A stretch of 42,423 nt of DNA, taken from the IMG/VR virus record IMGVR_UViG_3300007754_000019, positions 1 to 42,423 of that record; one strand, given 5' to 3'. Both the position numbers and the translations under genes were made by a program. Position 1 is the stretch's first letter. Each line of letters begins with the position of its first letter. A model generated the notes under the pieces. The model was not told the origin of the DNA, ran no database searches, and worked only from the letters and a program-made list of their open reading frames with translations. Shown here in pieces: positions 2,567 through 19,129 of this stretch. This stretch comes from a virus.

Positions 2567-3844
2567 TTATATTAAGTCTGCCCAAGATCCATTTTCATAG
2601 CCTTGGAATTTGTTATCTGTAGTATTGTAAATAATCATACCGTTGGCAGCCGATAATGAGTTTCTTTGTGTTGTTGTCATGCTTGCTAATTGTACCGCAT
2701 TAGCAAAAACTGTTGCACCAGTAGTCATCGTAGCAACTTCGGTACCGGCTGTCGCAAAACGAATTGTATCTTCGTCAGTACTTGCTTCTACTCTTATTCT
2801 TGTATCATTATCAGCATCCGCAATTAAATTTTGTGTACTAATTAATGAAGTACTAAAAATTCTTACTTCTACAATGTCATCAGTGTGTGGTGCTTCTACC
2901 ATTGTAAGCGTTGTGCCACTTACACTATATGCTGATGTAGGTTGTTGTAAAGCACCGTTAATATTAACGATAGTACCGTTTGTTGTTGCTGACGAACTCA
3001 GTGTAAATGCAGTTGTTGTACCGTCGCCAGTAAATGAGTCACTTGATACTAATGCATAATTACTTGCTTCTAAATCAACCCAAGAAGTACCATTATAGTA
3101 TTCCATTTTATTACTAGTGCTGTTATAACGAAAATCGCCCGCTGATGGTGATCCTGGTCGTTGTGCTGTGGTGCCATTTGGCATTGCTATAGAATTTGTG
3201 CCTACAATTTGTAATTGTCCTGTTCCATCTGGATCAATTTGTATATTACCGTTTGTTGTGCTTGTTGACATTACATTTGTTGAGAATGTAAAATCTCCCA
3301 AGTCACCGCCTACGCCAAAGTCACCTGTGTATCTCGCACCACTAATATAAACACTCTTGCCTGTAAAACTTACGCCATTAGGCAAGTTTGTACTAATAAA
3401 GTGTAATACGCCACTTTGATAATCAAAAAACCATTCGTCGTTATTACCAGAACCTGTAGCAAATACCTGTGTGCCTCCAGACGCGGCAGATCCAGCACTA
3501 CTGCTAGTGTGTATATAAGCTTTTACTTGGTATGTTGAACCAATTTCAGGTGATATCCAATCTGTTAGTCCTGTTTTCCAAGTTCTATTCGCTGTTGATG
3601 TAATATCTTCTGTGCATTCTTGTGGGGCACTTGTCGTGTATACAGTTACAACCTCGGAGCTTGATCCTGGTATTGTGCTAGGAATACTTGAAGCCTCCTT
3701 CCAAACTTTGTCGCCACGTAGCAACAACGAACTTGAAATCGCTTCGTTAGGCGCCTTTTTAAGTGCGTTTGTATCTGTTTTGGTAGCACCGTAACCTAGT
3801 TTTTTCCATAGGTAGTCAATTTTTTGGCTATCTGAAATGGCCAT
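2567..3844 (-). CDS. Virion structural/fibre-like protein (425 aa)
   Basis: The protein starts MAISDSQKIDYLWKKLGYG, an N-terminus I associate with appendage proteins of marine T4-like phages. The rest is Ser/Thr/Gly-rich beta repeats with no enzyme motif. Recognisable modules are an NGNIQIDPDGTGQLQI segment, a QRPGSPSAGDFRYNSTSN...YYNGTSWVDL segment, a GDGTTTAFTLSS...SAYSVSGTTLT segment, and a C-terminal degenerate copy of the RYN/YNG module (IIYNTTDNKFQGYENGSWADL). These recur in the neighbouring proteins. The start codon overlaps the stop of the PKD-repeat gene (TAATG), so the two are translationally coupled. The fibre role is inferred. Confidence 0.75.
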   Translation of the reverse strand: MAISDSQKIDYLWKKLGYGATKTDTNALKKAPNEAISSSLLLRGDKVWKEASSIPSTIPGSSSEVVTVYTTSAPQECTEDITSTANRTWKTGLTDWISPEIGSTYQVKAYIHTSSSAGSAASGGTQVFATGSGNNDEWFFDYQSGVLHFISTNLPNGVSFTGKSVYISGARYTGDFGVGGDLGDFTFSTNVMSTSTTNGNIQIDPDGTGQLQIVGTNSIAMPNGTTAQRPGSPSAGDFRYNSTSNKMEYYNGTSWVDLEASNYALVSSDSFTGDGTTTAFTLSSSATTNGTIVNINGALQQPTSAYSVSGTTLTMVEAPHTDDIVEVRIFSTSLISTQNLIADADNDTRIRVEASTDEDTIRFATAGTEVATMTTGATVFANAVQLASMTTTQRNSLSAANGMIIYNTTDNKFQGYENGSWADLI

Positions 3845-6800
3845 TATGAAGCCTCCCCTATGCTTATCGCAGTCACTGATTCACCGCTTGCTAGTGCTAT
3901 TCTTACCAATACGACATTGCCTGTAGCATTGGACATATTCTCTGAGCCAAGTGTCATTGTATAGCCACCACTTAGTGATGTGCCTGTTGCAATTCTGTCA
4001 CCTGATGTAAACGCACAGCCATTACTGCCGTTACCGCCATTGCCTGTATCACTGCCCGGAACACCACTACCACCATATGTTGTACTTGAATCTATCCATC
4101 CATTTAGTCCACTAGCACTATCAATTGCAGTGCCTGGTGCGGCAATCCATAATCCACTTATGCCTGAACTTGATGTAATGTTAATATCAAAGTTAGCAAC
4201 AACTTGTCTACGGAAAGCAAATGTAAAGTATTGTGTTCCCGTATCAGCACTACGATCAGGTCCTACTGGTAGGAAGCCTGAACTATAATCTGTTACATCG
4301 TATTTTAAAACACCAAGTCTAATTGTTGCTTCTTTTGTTCCACTAACACCTGGATCACTATTTTCAGAATATAAATCGTTAGTATAAAAATTTGTTGCAC
4401 CGTTAAAACTAGGTGTGTTTGTTGTGTCGGCATTAAAATCAAATACACGTTTGCCATCATCTGTATACGTGCCGTTGCCTAAACTATCTGCTACAGCAAT
4501 GGTCTGTTCAACAATACCACTCTGTGATGATCTGTGTACTTGAATATTAGTTGTGTTTTCAACATAACTACTTGTTCCGTTACAGTTGGATGCTCTTACT
4601 TTTACTCTGTCAACTGTTCTTACGCTACTTGTTGTAATAGGTACTGAAAGAGATCCTATCGTGTATGCAGACGCAACGCCAGTATCAGCATTTGGTATAC
4701 CGCCTGTTAGCATTGAACTTGCACCATCAATTTGTGCGTAAGTATAGTTTGAATTAGTAGTTGCCGCGCTACTTGTACTTTCTTGGTTTGTTCCGTTATC
4801 TACTTCAACGACTGATGACGTATCTCGGTAGGCTTGTCCTGTTAAATCACTAACCTGTACACCAGTTAAAGTAAGTGTTGGACTTCCTGTGTTATAATAT
4901 GGTATACCAGAAACATATCTTTTTGTGCCGCCAGTTCCTTCAGACAATGTGCCAGAATCATCTATAGTAGGCGTTGCTGTTATATCATCATATACAACAG
5001 AAACATAGTTTGTATTACCTGTTGCACTGTGTTCTAATCTTTCGTCATTTACACCTACTGTATAACTTGCAAGTGCTTGCGTAATTTTGGCATCAAACGT
5101 TTGATAAAATCCTGTTGGATAAGTTGCTGAACTAATTGTGTCGTTAGCATCACGTTGGTCACTTACAACAAGCGAGGTAAATGTTCCATTCTCGTTCAAT
5201 GCTGTTGTAAATGTTTTATTGCCTTTATCAACGCCGTTAACAGTTGCAGTTAGTGTTCCACTCAAACCATTGTAAGCATTAGCAATAACATTTGTGTCAA
5301 TTGTGCCACTTGTATATCGTCTTGCTGTAGTTGTAGTCAACGCCGCGCCCGCAACCAATGGATTACTCGTACTGTTATCTGCAAATCCAGCACAAAGTTT
5401 TGGACTTGAGCCTTGGTATGAATCACTCAACGTTAGCGATTTAGTACTCAAATTCGCTGGTGCAGATGGCGTTGCATTCATTTGGAACACAATACTTGAA
5501 TCTGAATCTGACTGTAATGTTAAATCAGGAGTTCCGTTTGCTGTAAAGGCTAATGTGTAATTGCCTGCTGATTCACCTGCATAATCATGATCTAATGTTG
5601 CGCCTATAGAACCAGCACTTACACCATCTTCAGTAGGAGTGTCGTTTGTACTACCATCACCCCAATTATATACATAATCATCTGCGTTTTGTGATGTGTT
5701 TGTTGCTCTTACTAATGCTCTATTATTTCCATTGTAGTCTGTGTAATCATAAATGTCATATTGATTGTCACCAGATCTATCACTTGTTGTTACTGCTGTG
5801 GCCGCAATGTTTGCTCTAACATCTGGTTCAACGTGAACTGTAAAGTTAGAACTAATAAATGGACTACTTGTATGATTACTAATAACTCTCAAGTTACCAG
5901 TATAATTTCTTGCTGTTCCTGATGCTTGGTCGCTTGGACTCAACGCAAACGTGTGACTAATAGTGTTACCAGTGTCACCACTTCCGCCTGTACCAACATT
6001 TACTGTTGTATCTGAAGTTCCATCGCCCCATTGGTATTCATATTGAATACCATATGTTGCATAACTGCCAATTGTTGCTTCAGTATTATTAGTAAAGGTA
6101 ATCGGTAATCCACTAGTACTTTCTTCGTTAATACCTGTTGTCGCACTTAATGATACTTCAGGAGTATGTGTGTCATAAATTTTATATGCGACATTGTCAC
6201 TAGTTGGTATTACTGATGGATCAGCAGTATTATGACTGTCTAGTGTTAGTATAACTGTTCTTGTTATTTCTTGTTCTGAAATTTCCGTAAACGTATGGTC
6301 AAGTCTTGCGCCGGCAGAACCACCTGCGGCACTATCACTTGAAATAACATTGTCGCTACTACCATCGTCCCAATCCCAAGTGTATTGAATTGTAGCACCG
6401 CCAATGTTTGTTGTATTATTATCAAAGTAAACTTGGTCACCGTCATCCCAATATGTAATTGGACTACCGCCTGATGAAGCGGCATATGCGGCAAAACTAA
6501 CAACCGGGTTAGCAGTATAGATAATAATATATCCCGCTCTTAATTTAGTTGCGGTGCTTCCTGTTCCACAGCCACTATTGTTATATGCAGTGACCTCTAC
6601 ATCAAATGGTGATCCTACGTTAGAACTATATGTATGTGTTGGAGTACTGTCTGTTGTTCCTGTTGTTGTGTTACCATCGCCCCAATCAATAGTGTATCTA
6701 TTTGCGTTTCCTGTGGCAGTAATAGTTAGTGTTACAACAAGTCCTGCACCACCTACTGTTTGGTCAGCAGTAAAGTCTACTTCCTTAACAAAAGTACTAT

Positions 6801-13816: not shown

Positions 13817-15487
13817 TTATGTTGTTGGTGCTGGTTCTAACTCAGGTGCTTCGCCACCTTCTATAGGTGCTTCACCCTCTATAGGCGCTTCATCACCTTC
13901 CGGAAGTTCAGGTTCCTCTGCCATAGACATATCAGAGTCTAATCCACCTGGTGTAATACCAACATTACGCATATCTGAACCATATACTTGGGATGCTTGA
14001 TTGTTGCCTGTTTCCTCTTCCCACTTTTCTGTGTTTTCAATTAGTTCTTGCTCTGTTAGACCTAAGTAACGTGTTAGCAAGAAGCGTTTACTCATATATG
14101 GCAATTGTTCTAACTGCGTAAATGCAGAAATCTTTGTGTTATCCAACTCTGCTTGTCTATATGATGCAAAGTTCTGCGGCTCATTAAACTTAATTTCAAA
14201 AATACTATTGTCAATATTAACACCACGTGTCTTTAAAAATAGTTTAAATTCTGTATCAACTGTACCAGAAATAATTGTTTGTAAACGTTTGCAGTATTCG
14301 TTGAATCTAAATTCTTGAATTAATGCTGTGCCTACTCTACCATCATTATAAGCGGCGACACCTTCATCAGGTCCGGTTGGCAAATAACTTGCCGGAATAC
14401 GCAATGCACGATATAATTTATTTGTAAAATATCTTAAATCGTCAATTTGTCCTAGATTTTCACCTCCTGGTAATGTTTCGACTTTACTGCCTCTTCCTTC
14501 GCCCGTTTGTGGAAAGAAATAATCTTCCATAATAGATAGTGGATTATATGTTGAATCCATCATTTTGGATCCACCACCTGTTGTAGTTGGAATTCTACGT
14601 TGGTGAATTTCATTCTTAACACGCTCAACAAAACCCATAGCCATGTGTGATGGCATATTACCTACGTCAATGTAAAATACACGGCGTTCCGGAGCACGTT
14701 GTACGCGGTAGATAATAATAGCATCTTCTAATAATTCTTTTTGTTTATATGTTTTAAAGATATTCTCTAAAATACTATTACCAAATGGCCAGGTGCCATC
14801 CATCTCTTCTGTTAAACTAATATGAACAATATAATTAGCATCAATAGCAACGGCTTTTTTACCATATGTGTATTTGGAAGCATTTGCCATATTCTCTTGT
14901 GTTTGTGATCCTGTTCTACTCATTAGATTAGGAATAGTTGTACCACCTGTCTCCTTTTCTGTTGTTTGTAGAGTATCAAAATTAATTGCTAAATCACGAA
15001 CAATATATTGTTCAATTTCTTTACCGGCACTTTCATCAACAACAATCTTTTCAACTTTGGCACAATCAACAAAGTGCCACTTTTGTGTTTCTGGATCACG
15101 AATAAAAAGTTGGTCACCGTATTTTAGTGTGTTGCGGAAAAGTTTAAAAATTTTACGATCAAAACTTTGTAGATTATACCAGTGTTTTAATTGTGTATTT
15201 AAAATTTCCATTTCTGTTGCTGTCGCGTCATCATGGTAATGAACTTGGAATGCAATGCCTGATTCTGTATTTTGTTGTGTACAGAATTCTGCTAAAATAT
15301 CAAGTGCTGAATTTACTTCACTGTCTTGGTCCATTGCATCGTATTGAATATAACGCTCAATACGATTAGGATGCCCAGAGTAAACTTCAGGCAATACTGA
15401 ACTATAATTTTTAAAGCCAACGTCAGGAGTTCCATTTCTCATTGGAACTACATTGTTTGGTTGTGTGAAATATTTTTTCCAAGTCAT
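13817..15487 (-). CDS. 20: Portal vertex protein gp20
   Basis: The 556-aa protein matches the T4-type portal. Typical blocks are YDAMDQDSEVNSALDILAEF, GDQLFIRDPET, RVQRAPERRVFYIDVGNMP, MMDSTYNPLSIMEDYFFPQ, GRGSKVETLPGGENLG, and the LYRALRIPASYL helix region. It forms the dodecameric ring through which DNA is packaged and to which the neck binds. The C-terminal ~50 residues are an acidic/proline-rich tail with APIEGEAPIEGGEAP repeats, absent from T4. No Shine-Dalgarno precedes the start; 25 nt upstream is a 23-bp element (15513-15535) shared with the gp26 leader. Confidence 0.95.
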   Translation of the reverse strand: MTWKKYFTQPNNVVPMRNGTPDVGFKNYSSVLPEVYSGHPNRIERYIQYDAMDQDSEVNSALDILAEFCTQQNTESGIAFQVHYHDDATATEMEILNTQLKHWYNLQSFDRKIFKLFRNTLKYGDQLFIRDPETQKWHFVDCAKVEKIVVDESAGKEIEQYIVRDLAINFDTLQTTEKETGGTTIPNLMSRTGSQTQENMANASKYTYGKKAVAIDANYIVHISLTEEMDGTWPFGNSILENIFKTYKQKELLEDAIIIYRVQRAPERRVFYIDVGNMPSHMAMGFVERVKNEIHQRRIPTTTGGGSKMMDSTYNPLSIMEDYFFPQTGEGRGSKVETLPGGENLGQIDDLRYFTNKLYRALRIPASYLPTGPDEGVAAYNDGRVGTALIQEFRFNEYCKRLQTIISGTVDTEFKLFLKTRGVNIDNSIFEIKFNEPQNFASYRQAELDNTKISAFTQLEQLPYMSKRFLLTRYLGLTEQELIENTEKWEEETGNNQASQVYGSDMRNVGITPGGLDSDMSMAEEPELPEGDEAPIEGEAPIEGGEAPELEPAPTT

Positions 15488-15563: not shown

Positions 15564-17876
15564 CTACCCGTATGTCGTCCCATCTTGCCCTGCTTCATTT
15601 GCTAATCCGTGCGGAGATCTTGCGTTCTTGTTTCCATTATCAATATTAACATTAACCTGATTATTTTTCTGTGCTTGCAATTGTTTTTCAGTAAGATCAA
15701 CGAGTTTATCCAATTGTTGAGTTTGCTTTTTCACTTCTTGTAAGTTTTCATTAGCGGTATCTGACAAGCTTTTAGATGCTTCAGTTGCCCCAGTAGCAGA
15801 TTCACCTGTTTGTGCTATGCCTGCCTCGGCCAAGGCTGATATCTTTGTGGAAAGTCCTGCATGGCGCGCATCTGCACTTGATGTTGCTACTTTTGGTTTT
15901 GCTACTGGTGTACCAGGTGGTGGAGTATTTGGTTTTACTACTGCTGTAGGTTTTGCTTCCGAAGTACCACCCAGCACATCCTTCCTTATGTCGACGCGAT
16001 CTCCAGTCCCGCCAAACATTTCATGCATTGTGTCATACTGTTCTTGAATTAGATCTATAGATGTTTTCATAAAACCTGTAATTTTGTCACCTAATGTACC
16101 TGCCATTCTTGGAATAGTTCTGTAAGATACAAGTCCTTCGTCTTGTAGTTTTATTATCTCAGCTGAAAGTTCTTCATCAAACCCCGTTTTTTCTTTATAG
16201 GTTTTTAATTGTCCCTGGACCCAATTGATCAGTCCATCATCAGCGTTAAAGATAGTATCCAAAAACAATTCCCTGGCGCCAACTGCTATCTCGTCTTTCA
16301 GAACTCTGATATCAGTTGTTAGTTGGGTAGCTGCATCACCAATCGTTCCTACGAGTTTCCCGTCGACAATTTCTGCGTCAATACCCATTGCTTGATCATA
16401 AAAATGTTCAAATGCTGTCGAAAAGTTTACTGATTCTGTATCAACTATCCCGGCATGTTTGGCATATGCGTCTTGAATTGCATTAAATTTTGTAGTGGTT
16501 GCCTGTGCAGCTTCGAACAATGCTAACCCGATCGGTTGGCCAGCCGCGGCTAAAGGAGCAAAAGTATCTCTTGTTTTTTCTATGGCGTCTTCTAATTTGC
16601 CTAGACTTGCGTTAAAAATCTCGCCGGCGCCATCACCAGCAGATAACATATCTGAGGCTAGATCGTTATACATTTGTCCCATCGGAGTAGCCATCATCAT
16701 TCTAGCCTCTTTACCTTTCGGAACAACACCTGCAACTCTGGCTTTAAAGATCTCAGCGGCCGCCGGGCCGCCTGTTTCCATTGCCTTCTTGAGCCCGTCT
16801 GTCATTGCAGCCTGTTGTTCTGGGCCCATGTTCATAATAGCCGCCTGGAATTGCGCGTCAGATGCCAATTTTTGTTGTTCTTTCGCTAGCCGATCTTTAC
16901 TCTTACCAGTGAGTACTTCTAACTGTGATAATTGGTATATATAATCACCGGTCATATCTGCTTGCTCTTGAGCAGATAACGAACGAGTGCTATCAGCCAG
17001 AGAAGCATTATTCAGCATGGTTGCCGATAACTCTAATGCATCTTCTACATCCATACCCATCAATTCTATTGTGCGTCTAAACGACATTCCGGATGTTGTA
17101 TGACGTCGGCCAACGTCTGAAAGTACGCCACCTAAAGTAACTAATCTTTCAGCACCTAGTTGTGCTGTTCCTCCAAACATAGACAATGTTTCAGAATTTC
17201 TTTTCATTAAAGCATTAAATTCTGTTTGTGTCAAAGTTGTTGTTGTGATGGCCTTCGCATACGTTTCTAGACTTCTACCAAAAGGTATACCTGCTGTGGT
17301 TATCTCGTTTAGTCCATCTAAATATCCGCCGTACACTTCTTCAGCAATTCCGAGCGCCGCGCCGCCGGCGCCGCCCACAACAGAACCTACCATCGCACCG
17401 GCGCTGCCGAATCTAGCTCCCGCGGTACCGCCCAACCCAGCGCCGGCGGCCATAAAAGGAACCTTGGCAAGAATCGACTTAAAGACTCCCGCGATCGCAG
17501 ACATAATACCACCTTGATCGTCATCCTTATCTTTGTCATCTCCATCTGAATCTGGCTTAGTTAGTTTTCCATCTTTAACAATTTTATCTATATTGCCCAT
17601 CGCAATGACCATTGCTCCGGCGCTTGCGGAAAAGGTCATGCCGGCCTTGGTTATTTCTACAGCGGCACCGCCGAGAGATTTGGTCAATCCGTTTAATGCT
17701 TCTCCAAATGCCTCTGCACTATCACCAGCATAGGATATTTGTCTTCCAGAAACCCTCGCAACTCGCGAAATGTAATTTAACTCTGTAGACGCACGATCCG
17801 CAGAGTCAGAGACACTTCTAAATAGCGCATCTATAGATCGTTTGGTTTCTCGTAAAATTGCGTCGTCGTCTGCCAT
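15564..17876 (-). CDS. Tail tape-measure-like protein (gp29 position, 770 aa)
   Basis: The protein has a helical N-terminus (RSIDALFRSVSDSADRASTEL), a Gly/Ala-rich hydrophobic segment at about residues 124-185 (for example AGAGLGGTAGARFGSAGAM, with glycine-zipper character), long helical Ala/Glu/Lys regions, a Pro/Thr linker near 645-665, and a final coiled coil (EVKKQTQQLDKLVDLTEKQL) with a conserved-looking tail. Length and pattern fit a tail tape measure, which T4 calls gp29. It is divergent from gp26, whose frameshift extension resembles tail-assembly chaperones; tape-measure and chaperone genes are normally neighbours. A late promoter lies at 17920-17927. No clear Shine-Dalgarno precedes the start. 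T4 gp29 is 590 aa, so a longer tail is possible. Confidence 0.7.
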   Translation of the reverse strand: MADDDAILRETKRSIDALFRSVSDSADRASTELNYISRVARVSGRQISYAGDSAEAFGEALNGLTKSLGGAAVEITKAGMTFSASAGAMVIAMGNIDKIVKDGKLTKPDSDGDDKDKDDDQGGIMSAIAGVFKSILAKVPFMAAGAGLGGTAGARFGSAGAMVGSVVGGAGGAALGIAEEVYGGYLDGLNEITTAGIPFGRSLETYAKAITTTTLTQTEFNALMKRNSETLSMFGGTAQLGAERLVTLGGVLSDVGRRHTTSGMSFRRTIELMGMDVEDALELSATMLNNASLADSTRSLSAQEQADMTGDYIYQLSQLEVLTGKSKDRLAKEQQKLASDAQFQAAIMNMGPEQQAAMTDGLKKAMETGGPAAAEIFKARVAGVVPKGKEARMMMATPMGQMYNDLASDMLSAGDGAGEIFNASLGKLEDAIEKTRDTFAPLAAAGQPIGLALFEAAQATTTKFNAIQDAYAKHAGIVDTESVNFSTAFEHFYDQAMGIDAEIVDGKLVGTIGDAATQLTTDIRVLKDEIAVGARELFLDTIFNADDGLINWVQGQLKTYKEKTGFDEELSAEIIKLQDEGLVSYRTIPRMAGTLGDKITGFMKTSIDLIQEQYDTMHEMFGGTGDRVDIRKDVLGGTSEAKPTAVVKPNTPPPGTPVAKPKVATSSADARHAGLSTKISALAEAGIAQTGESATGATEASKSLSDTANENLQEVKKQTQQLDKLVDLTEKQLQAQKNNQVNVNIDNGNKNARSPHGLANEAGQDGTTYG

Positions 17877-17927: not shown

Positions 17928-17949
17928 CATCAAATTTTGAGGATTTCAA

Positions 17950-18789
17950 ATGAGTAGTTTATTAGAACAATATTATCGCCAACCTGAGATTTATATCTCA
18001 TTACCTAACGAAGGTAAATTTTATCCTGCAGGATCTATAGAAATTTCCGAATCCGGCGAGATTCCTGTTTTTGCTATGACAGCCAAGGATGACATTGTAC
18101 TTAAAACGCCTGATGCTTTGATATCAGGTGAAGCAATTGCACAAGTTATAAAAAGTTGTGTTCCTGCTATTAAAGATCCATGGCAAGTACCTGCTACTGA
18201 TATTGATTTCATTTTAGTAGCAATTCGAATTGCGTCTTATGGTAATGACATGGAATTGAATTTTTCATGTCCTAAATGTGAAGAAAAATTTGATTATCAA
18301 ATAGGTTTAGAATATTATATTAATAAACTAGGTGATATATCCTTTGAACCTGAACAAATCTTAATTCCTTATGGCCAAGTTAAAATACATATTAAACCAT
18401 TAAATTATTTGGATTTGTCGTTAATTCAAAGACGCACATTCGAAGAACAACGTGCAATTGAGGCAGTGGGTTCAATGGAGGAAAAAACAGAAGAAGAAAA
18501 GCAAGAAATGTATAATGAAATACTAAATACAATGACCGATATAAACATCAACGCTATTTCTTCAGGTGTTAAAGCAATTGAACTTCCAGATGGCACTATG
18601 GTTGATGATCAAGAAGAAATTATTAATTTTGTTAATAATTCTAGTGTAAGATTATTCAAAAAAATTACAGGCGCTATTCAAGAAATTAAAGACAAAACAG
18701 TATTAGACCCTATTGATGTAAAATGCCCTGAATGTTCCCATGAGTTTACTAGTCCTATAATTTTTGATTACGCAAATTTTTTCGCCTAA
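17950..18789 (+). CDS. 26: Baseplate hub/tail-assembly chaperone-like protein gp26
   Basis: The 279-aa protein resembles the T4 gp26 baseplate family as found in marine phages: N-terminal YYRQPEIYISLPNEGKFYP followed by IPVFAMTAKDDIVLKTPDAL and a C-terminal alpha/beta region. Two CxxC pairs (CPKC at 107-110 and CPEC at 259-262) suggest a bound zinc. GAGG lies 9 nt before the start. The ORF ends ANFFA-stop, but the last codons contain the heptamer A AAT TTT, and the -1 frame stays open for 77 more codons with coding-like sequence and no start codon of its own near the junction. The gene therefore probably makes two products, as tail-assembly chaperone genes do in many long-tailed phages. Confidence 0.8.
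   Translation: MSSLLEQYYRQPEIYISLPNEGKFYPAGSIEISESGEIPVFAMTAKDDIVLKTPDALISGEAIAQVIKSCVPAIKDPWQVPATDIDFILVAIRIASYGNDMELNFSCPKCEEKFDYQIGLEYYINKLGDISFEPEQILIPYGQVKIHIKPLNYLDLSLIQRRTFEEQRAIEAVGSMEEKTEEEKQEMYNEILNTMTDININAISSGVKAIELPDGTMVDDQEEIINFVNNSSVRLFKKITGAIQEIKDKTVLDPIDVKCPECSHEFTSPIIFDYANFFA
18774..18780 (+). promoter_or_regulatory. Probable -1 programmed frameshift site A AAT TTT
   Basis: In the gp26 frame the end reads GCA AAT TTT TTC GCC TAA. The heptamer A-AAT-TTT fits the X-XXY-YYZ rule, allowing both tRNAs to slip back one base to AAA and TTT. The zero-frame stop follows two codons later (18787-18789), and the -1 frame continues to 19013. Confidence 0.7.
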
Positions 18790-19013
18790 GGCTTCTATCA
18801 TTAAAATACGAAGAAATATTAGAGTTAATTACTAATTACGAAAATCAGGTAGAAGCCATAAAAAAAGAAATATACAGTTTTGCATGGCATATGCGAGGTG
18901 GATTTACTATCAATGAGATGTTCAACACTTCCGCAAAGGAAAGAAAAGTACTTTCTGACATTATTGAAGAACATATGAAAACAACAAAACAATCAGGTTT
19001 ACCATATTTCTAA
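18780..19013 (+). CDS. C-terminal extension of gp26 made by -1 frameshift (77 aa)
   Basis: In the frame -1 to gp26, codons from 18780 read FRLRLLSLKYEEILELITNY, then a helix (ENQVEAIKKEIYSFAWHMRG), then GFTINEMFNTSAKERKVLSD, and stop at 19011-19013. There is no ATG, GTG or TTG with a ribosome site near the beginning; the first ATG (in HMRGG) is in the middle and has no Shine-Dalgarno. Frameshifting from gp26 residue 277 would give a 354-aa fusion. The helical pattern with an aromatic-W/M-R-G-G turn is like the second domain of tail-assembly chaperones (lambda gpG-T type). T4 encodes the separate protein gp51 next to gp26; whether this segment is its counterpart cannot be settled here. Confidence 0.7.
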   Translation, partial: FRLRLLSLKYEEILELITNYENQVEAIKKEIYSFAWHMRGGFTINEMFNTSAKERKVLSDIIEEHMKTTKQSGLPYF

Positions 19014-19129
19014 TGGAACAAGAGAACGAAAAAAAGCAGAATGAAGGCTTAGGATTACTTGGGGCAATATTCAGTCTATTCATCGGCTACAAAGCAGGCA
19101 AGAAAGCTGGTAAATGGCCCTGCATTTAA
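19013..19129 (+). CDS. 38-aa small membrane-like protein
   Basis: The ATG overlaps the stop of the gp26 frameshift extension (TAATG), so it is translationally coupled. The product has a charged N-terminus (MEQENEKKQNEG), one short hydrophobic helix (LGLLGAIFSLFIGY) and a basic C-terminus (KAGKKAGKWPCI). It looks like a single-pass membrane peptide. The IGYKAGKK segment resembles IGYNVGKK in the convergent 37-aa ORF 55 bp downstream. Function unknown; the coupling argues that it is really translated. Confidence 0.55.
   Translation: MEQENEKKQNEGLGLLGAIFSLFIGYKAGKKAGKWPCI

Follow-up and report, generated by a model that had tools for sequence, protein, structure and literature searches.

Organization of the gp26 locus

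The DNA analysed here, referred to as the window, is a viral stretch of 42,423 nucleotides (IMG/VR record IMGVR_UViG_3300007754_000019). On its plus strand, positions 17950–18789 encode in the 0 frame a putative gp26-type short chaperone (TAC-N) of 279 residues, and the sequence GAGGA (17939–17943), which reads as its ribosome site, lies 6 nt before the ATG. The gene ends with the codons GCA AAT TTT TTC GCC TAA, the stop being located at 18787–18789. Two overlapping heptamers, A AAT TTT (18774–18780) and T TTT TTC (18777–18783), are both phased for a −1 slip in gp26, and a slip at either of them would give an identical protein of 354 residues. Beginning at 18780, the −1 frame runs for 77 codons without a stop, as the initial annotation had noticed, and the part that would extend gp26 (TAC-C, 18783–19013) comprises 76 residues after the slip plus the stop codon (19011–19013); the translation past the slip, up to this stop, is RLRLLSLKYEEILELITNYENQVEAIKKEIYSFAWHMRGGFTINEMFNTSAKERKVLSDIIEEHMKTTKQSGLPYF. 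An open frame of this length is unlikely by chance, with a probability of approximately 0.001 according to the local composition, or 0.005 according to that of the window. Immediately downstream, a tiny ORF of 38 aa was observed (19013–19129), whose ATG shares the last base of the −1 frame TAA stop.

Upstream of gp26 and on the opposite strand lie the gene of a 770-aa protein (15564–17876) and that of the portal protein (13817–15487; phrog_213, E = 4e−109). Phosso, PA5oct, RaK2, CBB, GAP32, 121Q, Hallingskeid, and XaC1 likewise carry a large divergent gene in the interval from gp26 to portal, unlike Atu_ph07, Vibrio 2.275, XacN1, and RAS14. The RaK2 counterpart is annotated as similar to a tape measure protein. 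In blastp comparisons, the 770-aa protein matched L005 (1e−67), and L019, L012, L008, and Hallingskeid with values from 1e−12 to 4e−8; it did not match the RaK2 counterpart, and no Pfam or PHROGs family was found over threshold. By its position in some relatives only, this gene is a candidate for the tape measure.

The initial annotation had described the extension as coding-like and helical, and both traits were recovered. Substitutions in the −1 frame were commonest at third codon positions in all 11 scorable pairs of loci (13 pairs were tried, but two had unequal lengths and could not be scored); between the window and L005, for instance, 26, 15, and 7 changes fell at positions 3, 1, and 2, respectively. 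The extension is also conserved as a protein that could be aligned across 37 sequences, and its AlphaFold model is predicted to contain four helices (mean pLDDT of 85.2). When the extension alone was compared with Pfam and PHROGs, the matches were at chance level only.

Conservation of the slip site

The relatives of the window gp26 comprise 49 IMG/VR loci, of which 46 were included in a scripted count of the heptamer; the remaining three (L002–L004) were left out, and their gene proved to have the same sequence as that of the window. T TTT TTC was found in frame in all 46, starting 10–19 nt upstream of the 0-frame stop, and in each of them the −1 frame is open for 70–74 codons beyond this stop. 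A AAT TTT, the heptamer proposed in the initial annotation, is present in the window at the place and in the frame described, but it occurs in only 22 of the 46 loci and was rejected as the main slip site; the conserved one is the overlapping T TTT TTC.

The same heptamer was found in 13 of 16 records of jumbo phages, either cultured or assembled (Atu_ph07, Phosso, PA5oct, RaK2, CBB, GAP32, 121Q, Munch, Vibrio 2.275, Hallingskeid, XaC1, SCTP-2, and LR756511), while two others (XacN1 and RAS14) carry T TTT TTT at the junction. The remaining record, LR756508 (L067), does not have a −1 heptamer at its gp26-like gene. In this record, an extension-like sequence, YYSNGGYSWYNVYHHMPVHHRKFHLRKL, was observed around positions 3720–4020 in the +1 (= −2) frame, where another shift, or an independent start, may operate. 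Among 10 further records, Sf-FS3, IC12, VH7D, and Aswh_1 have T TTT TTC and RHph_Y68 has T TTT TTG; no usable heptamer was found in Cygsa01, K444, Mooltan, RC-2014, and SdyM_006. All 80 cyanophage-type loci carry T TTT TTC, in the context TTTTTTCG; the heptamer, Shine-Dalgarno (SD)-like, and ATG counts for this type took all 80 loci, and one comparison took 41 of them.

To thin duplicates, 57 loci, every one of them heptamer-bearing, were picked by hand and used for the junction, best-stem, and shuffle tests (LR756511, LR756508, Cygsa01, K444, Mooltan, RC-2014, SdyM_006, T4, VH7D, Aswh_1, and RHph_Y68 are outside this set). With the junction defined as the last in-frame run of six T, a definition that favours finding the heptamer, it reads T TTT TTC in 55 loci and T TTT TTT in two. 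In contrast, the other Phe-Phe pairs of the same genes were never encoded by T TTT TTC (0 of 31) and by T TTT TTT in three cases (Fisher p = 9e−22, relatedness ignored). In these genes, 71% of the two-fold NNY codons end in T, and Phe is encoded by TTT in 65% and by TTC in 35% of the cases. Both Phe residues of the junction are invariant columns in an independent protein alignment (A1, 37 sequences). Additionally, a −1 stop codon lies immediately 5′ of the heptamer in 7 of the 57 loci, and in these the −1 frame can therefore be entered only at the heptamer.

Initiation codons in the −1 frame

A rival reading makes the −1 ORF a gene of its own, read by termination-reinitiation or through a non-standard start codon, and several relatives do carry a start-like codon near the junction. 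In the cyanophage-type loci (80/80), the distances from the first base of the heptamer are 10 nt to the 0-frame stop and 15 nt to an ATG of the −1 frame, which sits 2 nt after the stop; in Sf-FS3 this ATG is annotated as the start of gp51. Early ATG codons are present in Atu_ph07 and Phosso (+9), and in 121Q and L008 (+12), and L020 and L048 have a TTG at +18 with AAGGA just 2 nt before it; some of the 46 scripted IMG/VR relatives are among the loci with an early ATG or TTG. In Cygsa01, K444, and RC-2014 the heptamer is lost, the second ORF is kept, and the junction reads TAATG; in Mooltan the second ORF is also kept after loss of the heptamer, with a junction that does not include an ATG. An own start in homologues and the loss of the heptamer with both ORFs intact, two outcomes that the initial annotation had listed against its reading, do occur in distant lineages, namely in cyanophages and in these four phages, respectively, but neither is the rule in the group formed by the 46 scripted relatives.

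Several observations disagree with a separate gene. In the window (identical to L001), no ATG, GTG, or TTG occurs in the −1 frame until 114 nt after T TTT TTC begins, in the middle of the extension, which bears out the view that this extension does not have a usable start of its own, and the −1 ORF of PA5oct does not contain a single ATG, GTG, or TTG. No SD-like sequence was detected within the 16 nt inspected before the early ATG codons of Atu_ph07, Phosso, 121Q, and L008. The cyanophage ATG lies within the proposed downstream stem (see below), roughly 25 nt beyond the GGAGG motif, a distance too long for usual initiation. Moreover, a free-standing ORF leaves the near-invariant T TTT TTC unexplained. 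Taking both sides together, we consider it very improbable that the extension is expressed as a separate gene. In current annotations, the extension of the jumbo phage records is a separate hypothetical ORF or is omitted, and in Sf-FS3, Cygsa01, and RHph_Y68 it is called baseplate hub assembly catalyst.

Predicted RNA stems and upstream motif around the slip site

Downstream of the heptamer, the RNA of the window is predicted to fold into a 10-bp stem formed by GGCUUCUAUC (18790–18799) and GGUAGAAGCC (18848–18857), which begins 6 nt past the slip site. Five of 200 dinucleotide shuffles were as stable as this fold, and none of 150 synonymous-codon shuffles (z = −3.21). When 14 loci were compared, with the 3′ arm taken as the best of a scan, a procedure that favours pairing, all 10 positions of the window-type stem were paired in four (L001, L005, Atu_ph07, and Phosso), and the complete stem was absent in the other 10. 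In the two rhizobial phages the stem is re-formed with different letters, the arms being GGCUCUUUGU/ACAAAGAGCC in Atu_ph07 and GGCUCUUGUC/GGCAAGAGCC in Phosso. The stem of L005 is not significant on its own, given its z of −0.71 in the synonymous-codon shuffle.

A second clade has another stem, in which 5 of the 10 pairs changed on both sides among nine sequences; its covariation score was 0.311 versus 0.138 in shuffles, and none of 500 shuffles reached the observed value. The sets A5 (9 loci) and A3 (26 loci) were picked by hand. A single RNA structure for the entire jumbo group was sought and not found, the best stem differing by clade. With synonymous-codon shuffles, the 36 jumbo-type loci showed a mean z of −1.63 near the site versus 0.03 further down, and the 21 cyanophage-type loci −1.36 versus −0.08.

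In 18 of these 21 cyanophage-type loci the best stem begins 4–8 nt downstream. The stem proposed for this type has a shared register, in which 84.3% of the cells are paired (25 distinct sequences), and encloses the ATG annotated as the start of gp51. One pair only, and eight cells, changed on both sides. As a control, sliding the register by +2 gave nine cells and two pairs changed on both sides, with 48.3% of the cells paired and half the covariation score. Because a single pair changed on both sides and the slide gave nine cells against eight, covariation suggests this stem at most.

An SD-like motif ending 8–10 nt before the heptamer was present in all 45 unique cyanophage-type sequences (GGAGG in 37), versus none of the 36 jumbo-type loci searched with the same set of motifs, an outcome that did not change with a slightly modified set. 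In E. coli dnaX, frameshifting involves an upstream SD sequence, which the cyanophage motif resembles, and a role as a ribosome-pausing element is possible. In L072–L151, the codon choice of the cyanophage-type gp26 at 8–15 nt 5′ of the slip site appears bent towards GGAGG: the Glu at this spot is encoded by GAG in 41 of 45 sequences, compared with 25% elsewhere, and the codon of the preceding Leu ends in TG in 40 of 45, compared with 31%.

These results also bear on the possibility that the fusion arises from slippage of the RNA polymerase, instead of the ribosome, on the run of T residues. The site does contain six consecutive T; however, six bases are a short run for polymerase slippage, and this explanation accounts neither for the stability of the RNA downstream of the site nor for the motif located 8–10 nt upstream of it in cyanophages, so we regard it as very improbable. 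That a single gene was split by a sequencing error or by gene decay is the least credible explanation, its probability being close to nil, since no point in its favour was found, the sequence 17950–19013 is the same in four IMG/VR contigs, which makes an assembly error very unlikely, and the layout is common to 46/46 scripted relatives, whose sequences, short of a shared error, refute it.

Relationship with T4 gp26 and gp51

The product of the window gene matched the Pfam family T4_baseplate (PF12322) over residues 47–279, with an E-value of 1.5e−18 and a score of 67.8 bits (cut-off of 24.5), and the baseplate hub family phrog_150 (2.1e−19). T4 gp26 (residues 1–206) and T4 gp51 (residues 1–201) matched this same Pfam family with values of 8.8e−64 and 3.9e−52, respectively, and gp51 has about 48 more residues beyond the match. 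The two T4 genes are on opposite strands, and the end of gene 26 does not contain T TTT TTC. The initial annotation was correct in that gp26 and gp51 of T4 are separate genes, but they do not correspond to an N-terminal and a C-terminal part, given that both are T4_baseplate proteins over approximately 200 residues. For this same reason, the idea that the extension represents "gp51" in place was rejected.

Profile comparisons were carried out with hhalign. The gp51 profile, whose set includes one truncated sequence (L166), aligned with the profile of the cyanophage-type gp26 plus extension over its full length and through the junction (99.7%), and the cyanophage-type and jumbo-type fusion profiles aligned end to end (99.8%); the cyanophage-type profiles also include IC12 (rhizobial), VH7D (Vibrio), and Aswh_1 (Aeromonas). 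With the extensions alone, the cyanophage-type one was related to gp51 (93.6%), but the jumbo-type one was not recognizably so, reaching 3.6% against the C-terminus of gp51 and 11.1% against the cyanophage-type extension. A match between T4 gp51 and the jumbo fusion (86.9%) was set aside as an out-of-register alignment. By these alignments, T4 gp51 appears to be a whole long form, of which only the last ~48 residues would occupy the place of the extension. Read most simply, T4 would have one gene for the short form (26) and another for the long form (51), where the phage of the window would frameshift.

The model of the short form had a mean pLDDT of 88.9, and its top two matches among predicted viral proteins were a T4-like baseplate hub assembly protein and a baseplate protein. 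The tail assembly chaperone of HK97 (2ob9) appeared at rank 13 (Z = 6.0, 101/107 residues, rmsd of 5.1); with a Z below 8, which is within chance, this match of the modelled core is suggestive at most. Foldseek searches of the core and the extension against the PDB gave nothing at E ≤ 0.001, and when the core profile was run against the sequences of solved structures, four matches appeared, none of them convincing (best E of 0.22). The gp26 model also matched longer proteins of other jumbo phages, namely Erwinia Special G (539 residues, E = 1.9e−8), Ralstonia RSL1 (384 residues, 1.4e−5), and RP12 (548 residues, 4.6e−5), a hint from modelling that the fold may also exist outside the T4-like phages.

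Discussion

In the window, a −1 programmed frameshift very probably yields a short and a long tail assembly chaperone from one start, as the initial annotation had proposed, although with the site moved to T TTT TTC. This reading is backed by the slip site and its conservation, a −1 frame that is coding and offers no usable start, a predicted stem with matching changes, and the homology of the core with T4 gp26 and gp51. We infer the occurrence and frequency of slippage, the partner of the products (perhaps the 770-aa neighbour), and their function. Most ribosomes would terminate at 18787 to produce the 279-aa short chaperone, and a minority, probably helped by the stem that begins 6 nt downstream, would shift backwards by one base at T TTT TTC (18777–18783) to produce the 354-aa long chaperone, which would carry the helical C-terminal domain. 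By analogy with gpG and gpGT of lambda, both forms encoded in the window would attach to the tape measure protein and, while the tail is being assembled, pass it on to the protein of the tail tube. A role as tail assembly chaperone is the most likely one, and the proposed link of T4 gp26 and gp51 with the general chaperone system gains support.

A −1 frameshift giving a short and a long chaperone is known for the E/E′ genes of P2, whose site is T-rich, and for G/GT of lambda, both of which we liken to the window by their layout. Within the T4-like phages, Vladimirov, Gautam and Davidson reportedly described in 2022 frameshifting as conserved in several groups, with T4 relying on genes 26 and 51 instead. 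Those systems and the window share a gp26-type short and long form and a polyT slip signal, T4 having separate genes; since frameshifting of this sort had been described in T4-like phages, the present case is not new in kind. In the titles and abstract openings of the matches listed, which were mostly open-access literature, frameshifting in RaK2/PA5oct-type jumbo phages was not described; neither were the downstream stems and the cyanophage upstream GGAGG as stimulators in the titles and abstract openings among the matches listed. A further article credits Vladimirov 2022 with polyT slip signals in T4-like phages, and mentions that in Vandenendeviridae the tail chaperone is extended by a −1 frameshift and that the extension mostly figures in annotations as a hypothetical gene in its own right (PMC12846349). 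The window is comparable to this family by the frameshift extension; the motif conserved there is GTTTTT, in contrast to T TTT TTC G.

A close parallel is found in cyanophages, where gp26 and the short "gp51" share with the window the slip site and the frame, and where the profiles of the fusions align from end to end; they differ in a shorter extension, the ATG after the slip, and the upstream GGAGG-type element. T4 resembles the window in that gp26 and gp51 are both T4_baseplate proteins, gp51 with the layout of the long form, and differs from it in having two genes on opposite strands and a gene 26 end devoid of T TTT TTC. Both proteins are listed as hub assembly chaperones in PMC3004832. 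According to a study from 2010 (PMC3037559), cyanophage and marine vibriophage gp51 is without the ~200 N-terminal residues that other T4-like copies have, and its C-terminus matches theirs. This short gp51 would correspond to the part that frameshifting adds to gp26, which would explain the missing N-terminal residues.

We consider it reasonably probable that gp26 frameshifting is ancestral in the T4-type contractile phages, with a near-invariant heptamer and stimulators that differ by lineage: in the window clade, a stem past the slip site, and in cyanophages, an upstream GGAGG plus a hairpin hiding the annotated gp51 start. In T4, a gene duplication, giving 26 and 51, would have taken the place of frameshifting, and in other phages a TAATG junction would have done so. 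If this is true, the cyanophage "gp51" as annotated would not be a separate protein. The frameshift, if confirmed, would lead to a corrected annotation for one of the core tail genes of jumbo phages, whose extension is now a hypothetical protein or is missed, and the differing stimulators found at one slip site across lineages would constitute a natural test set for frameshift efficiency.
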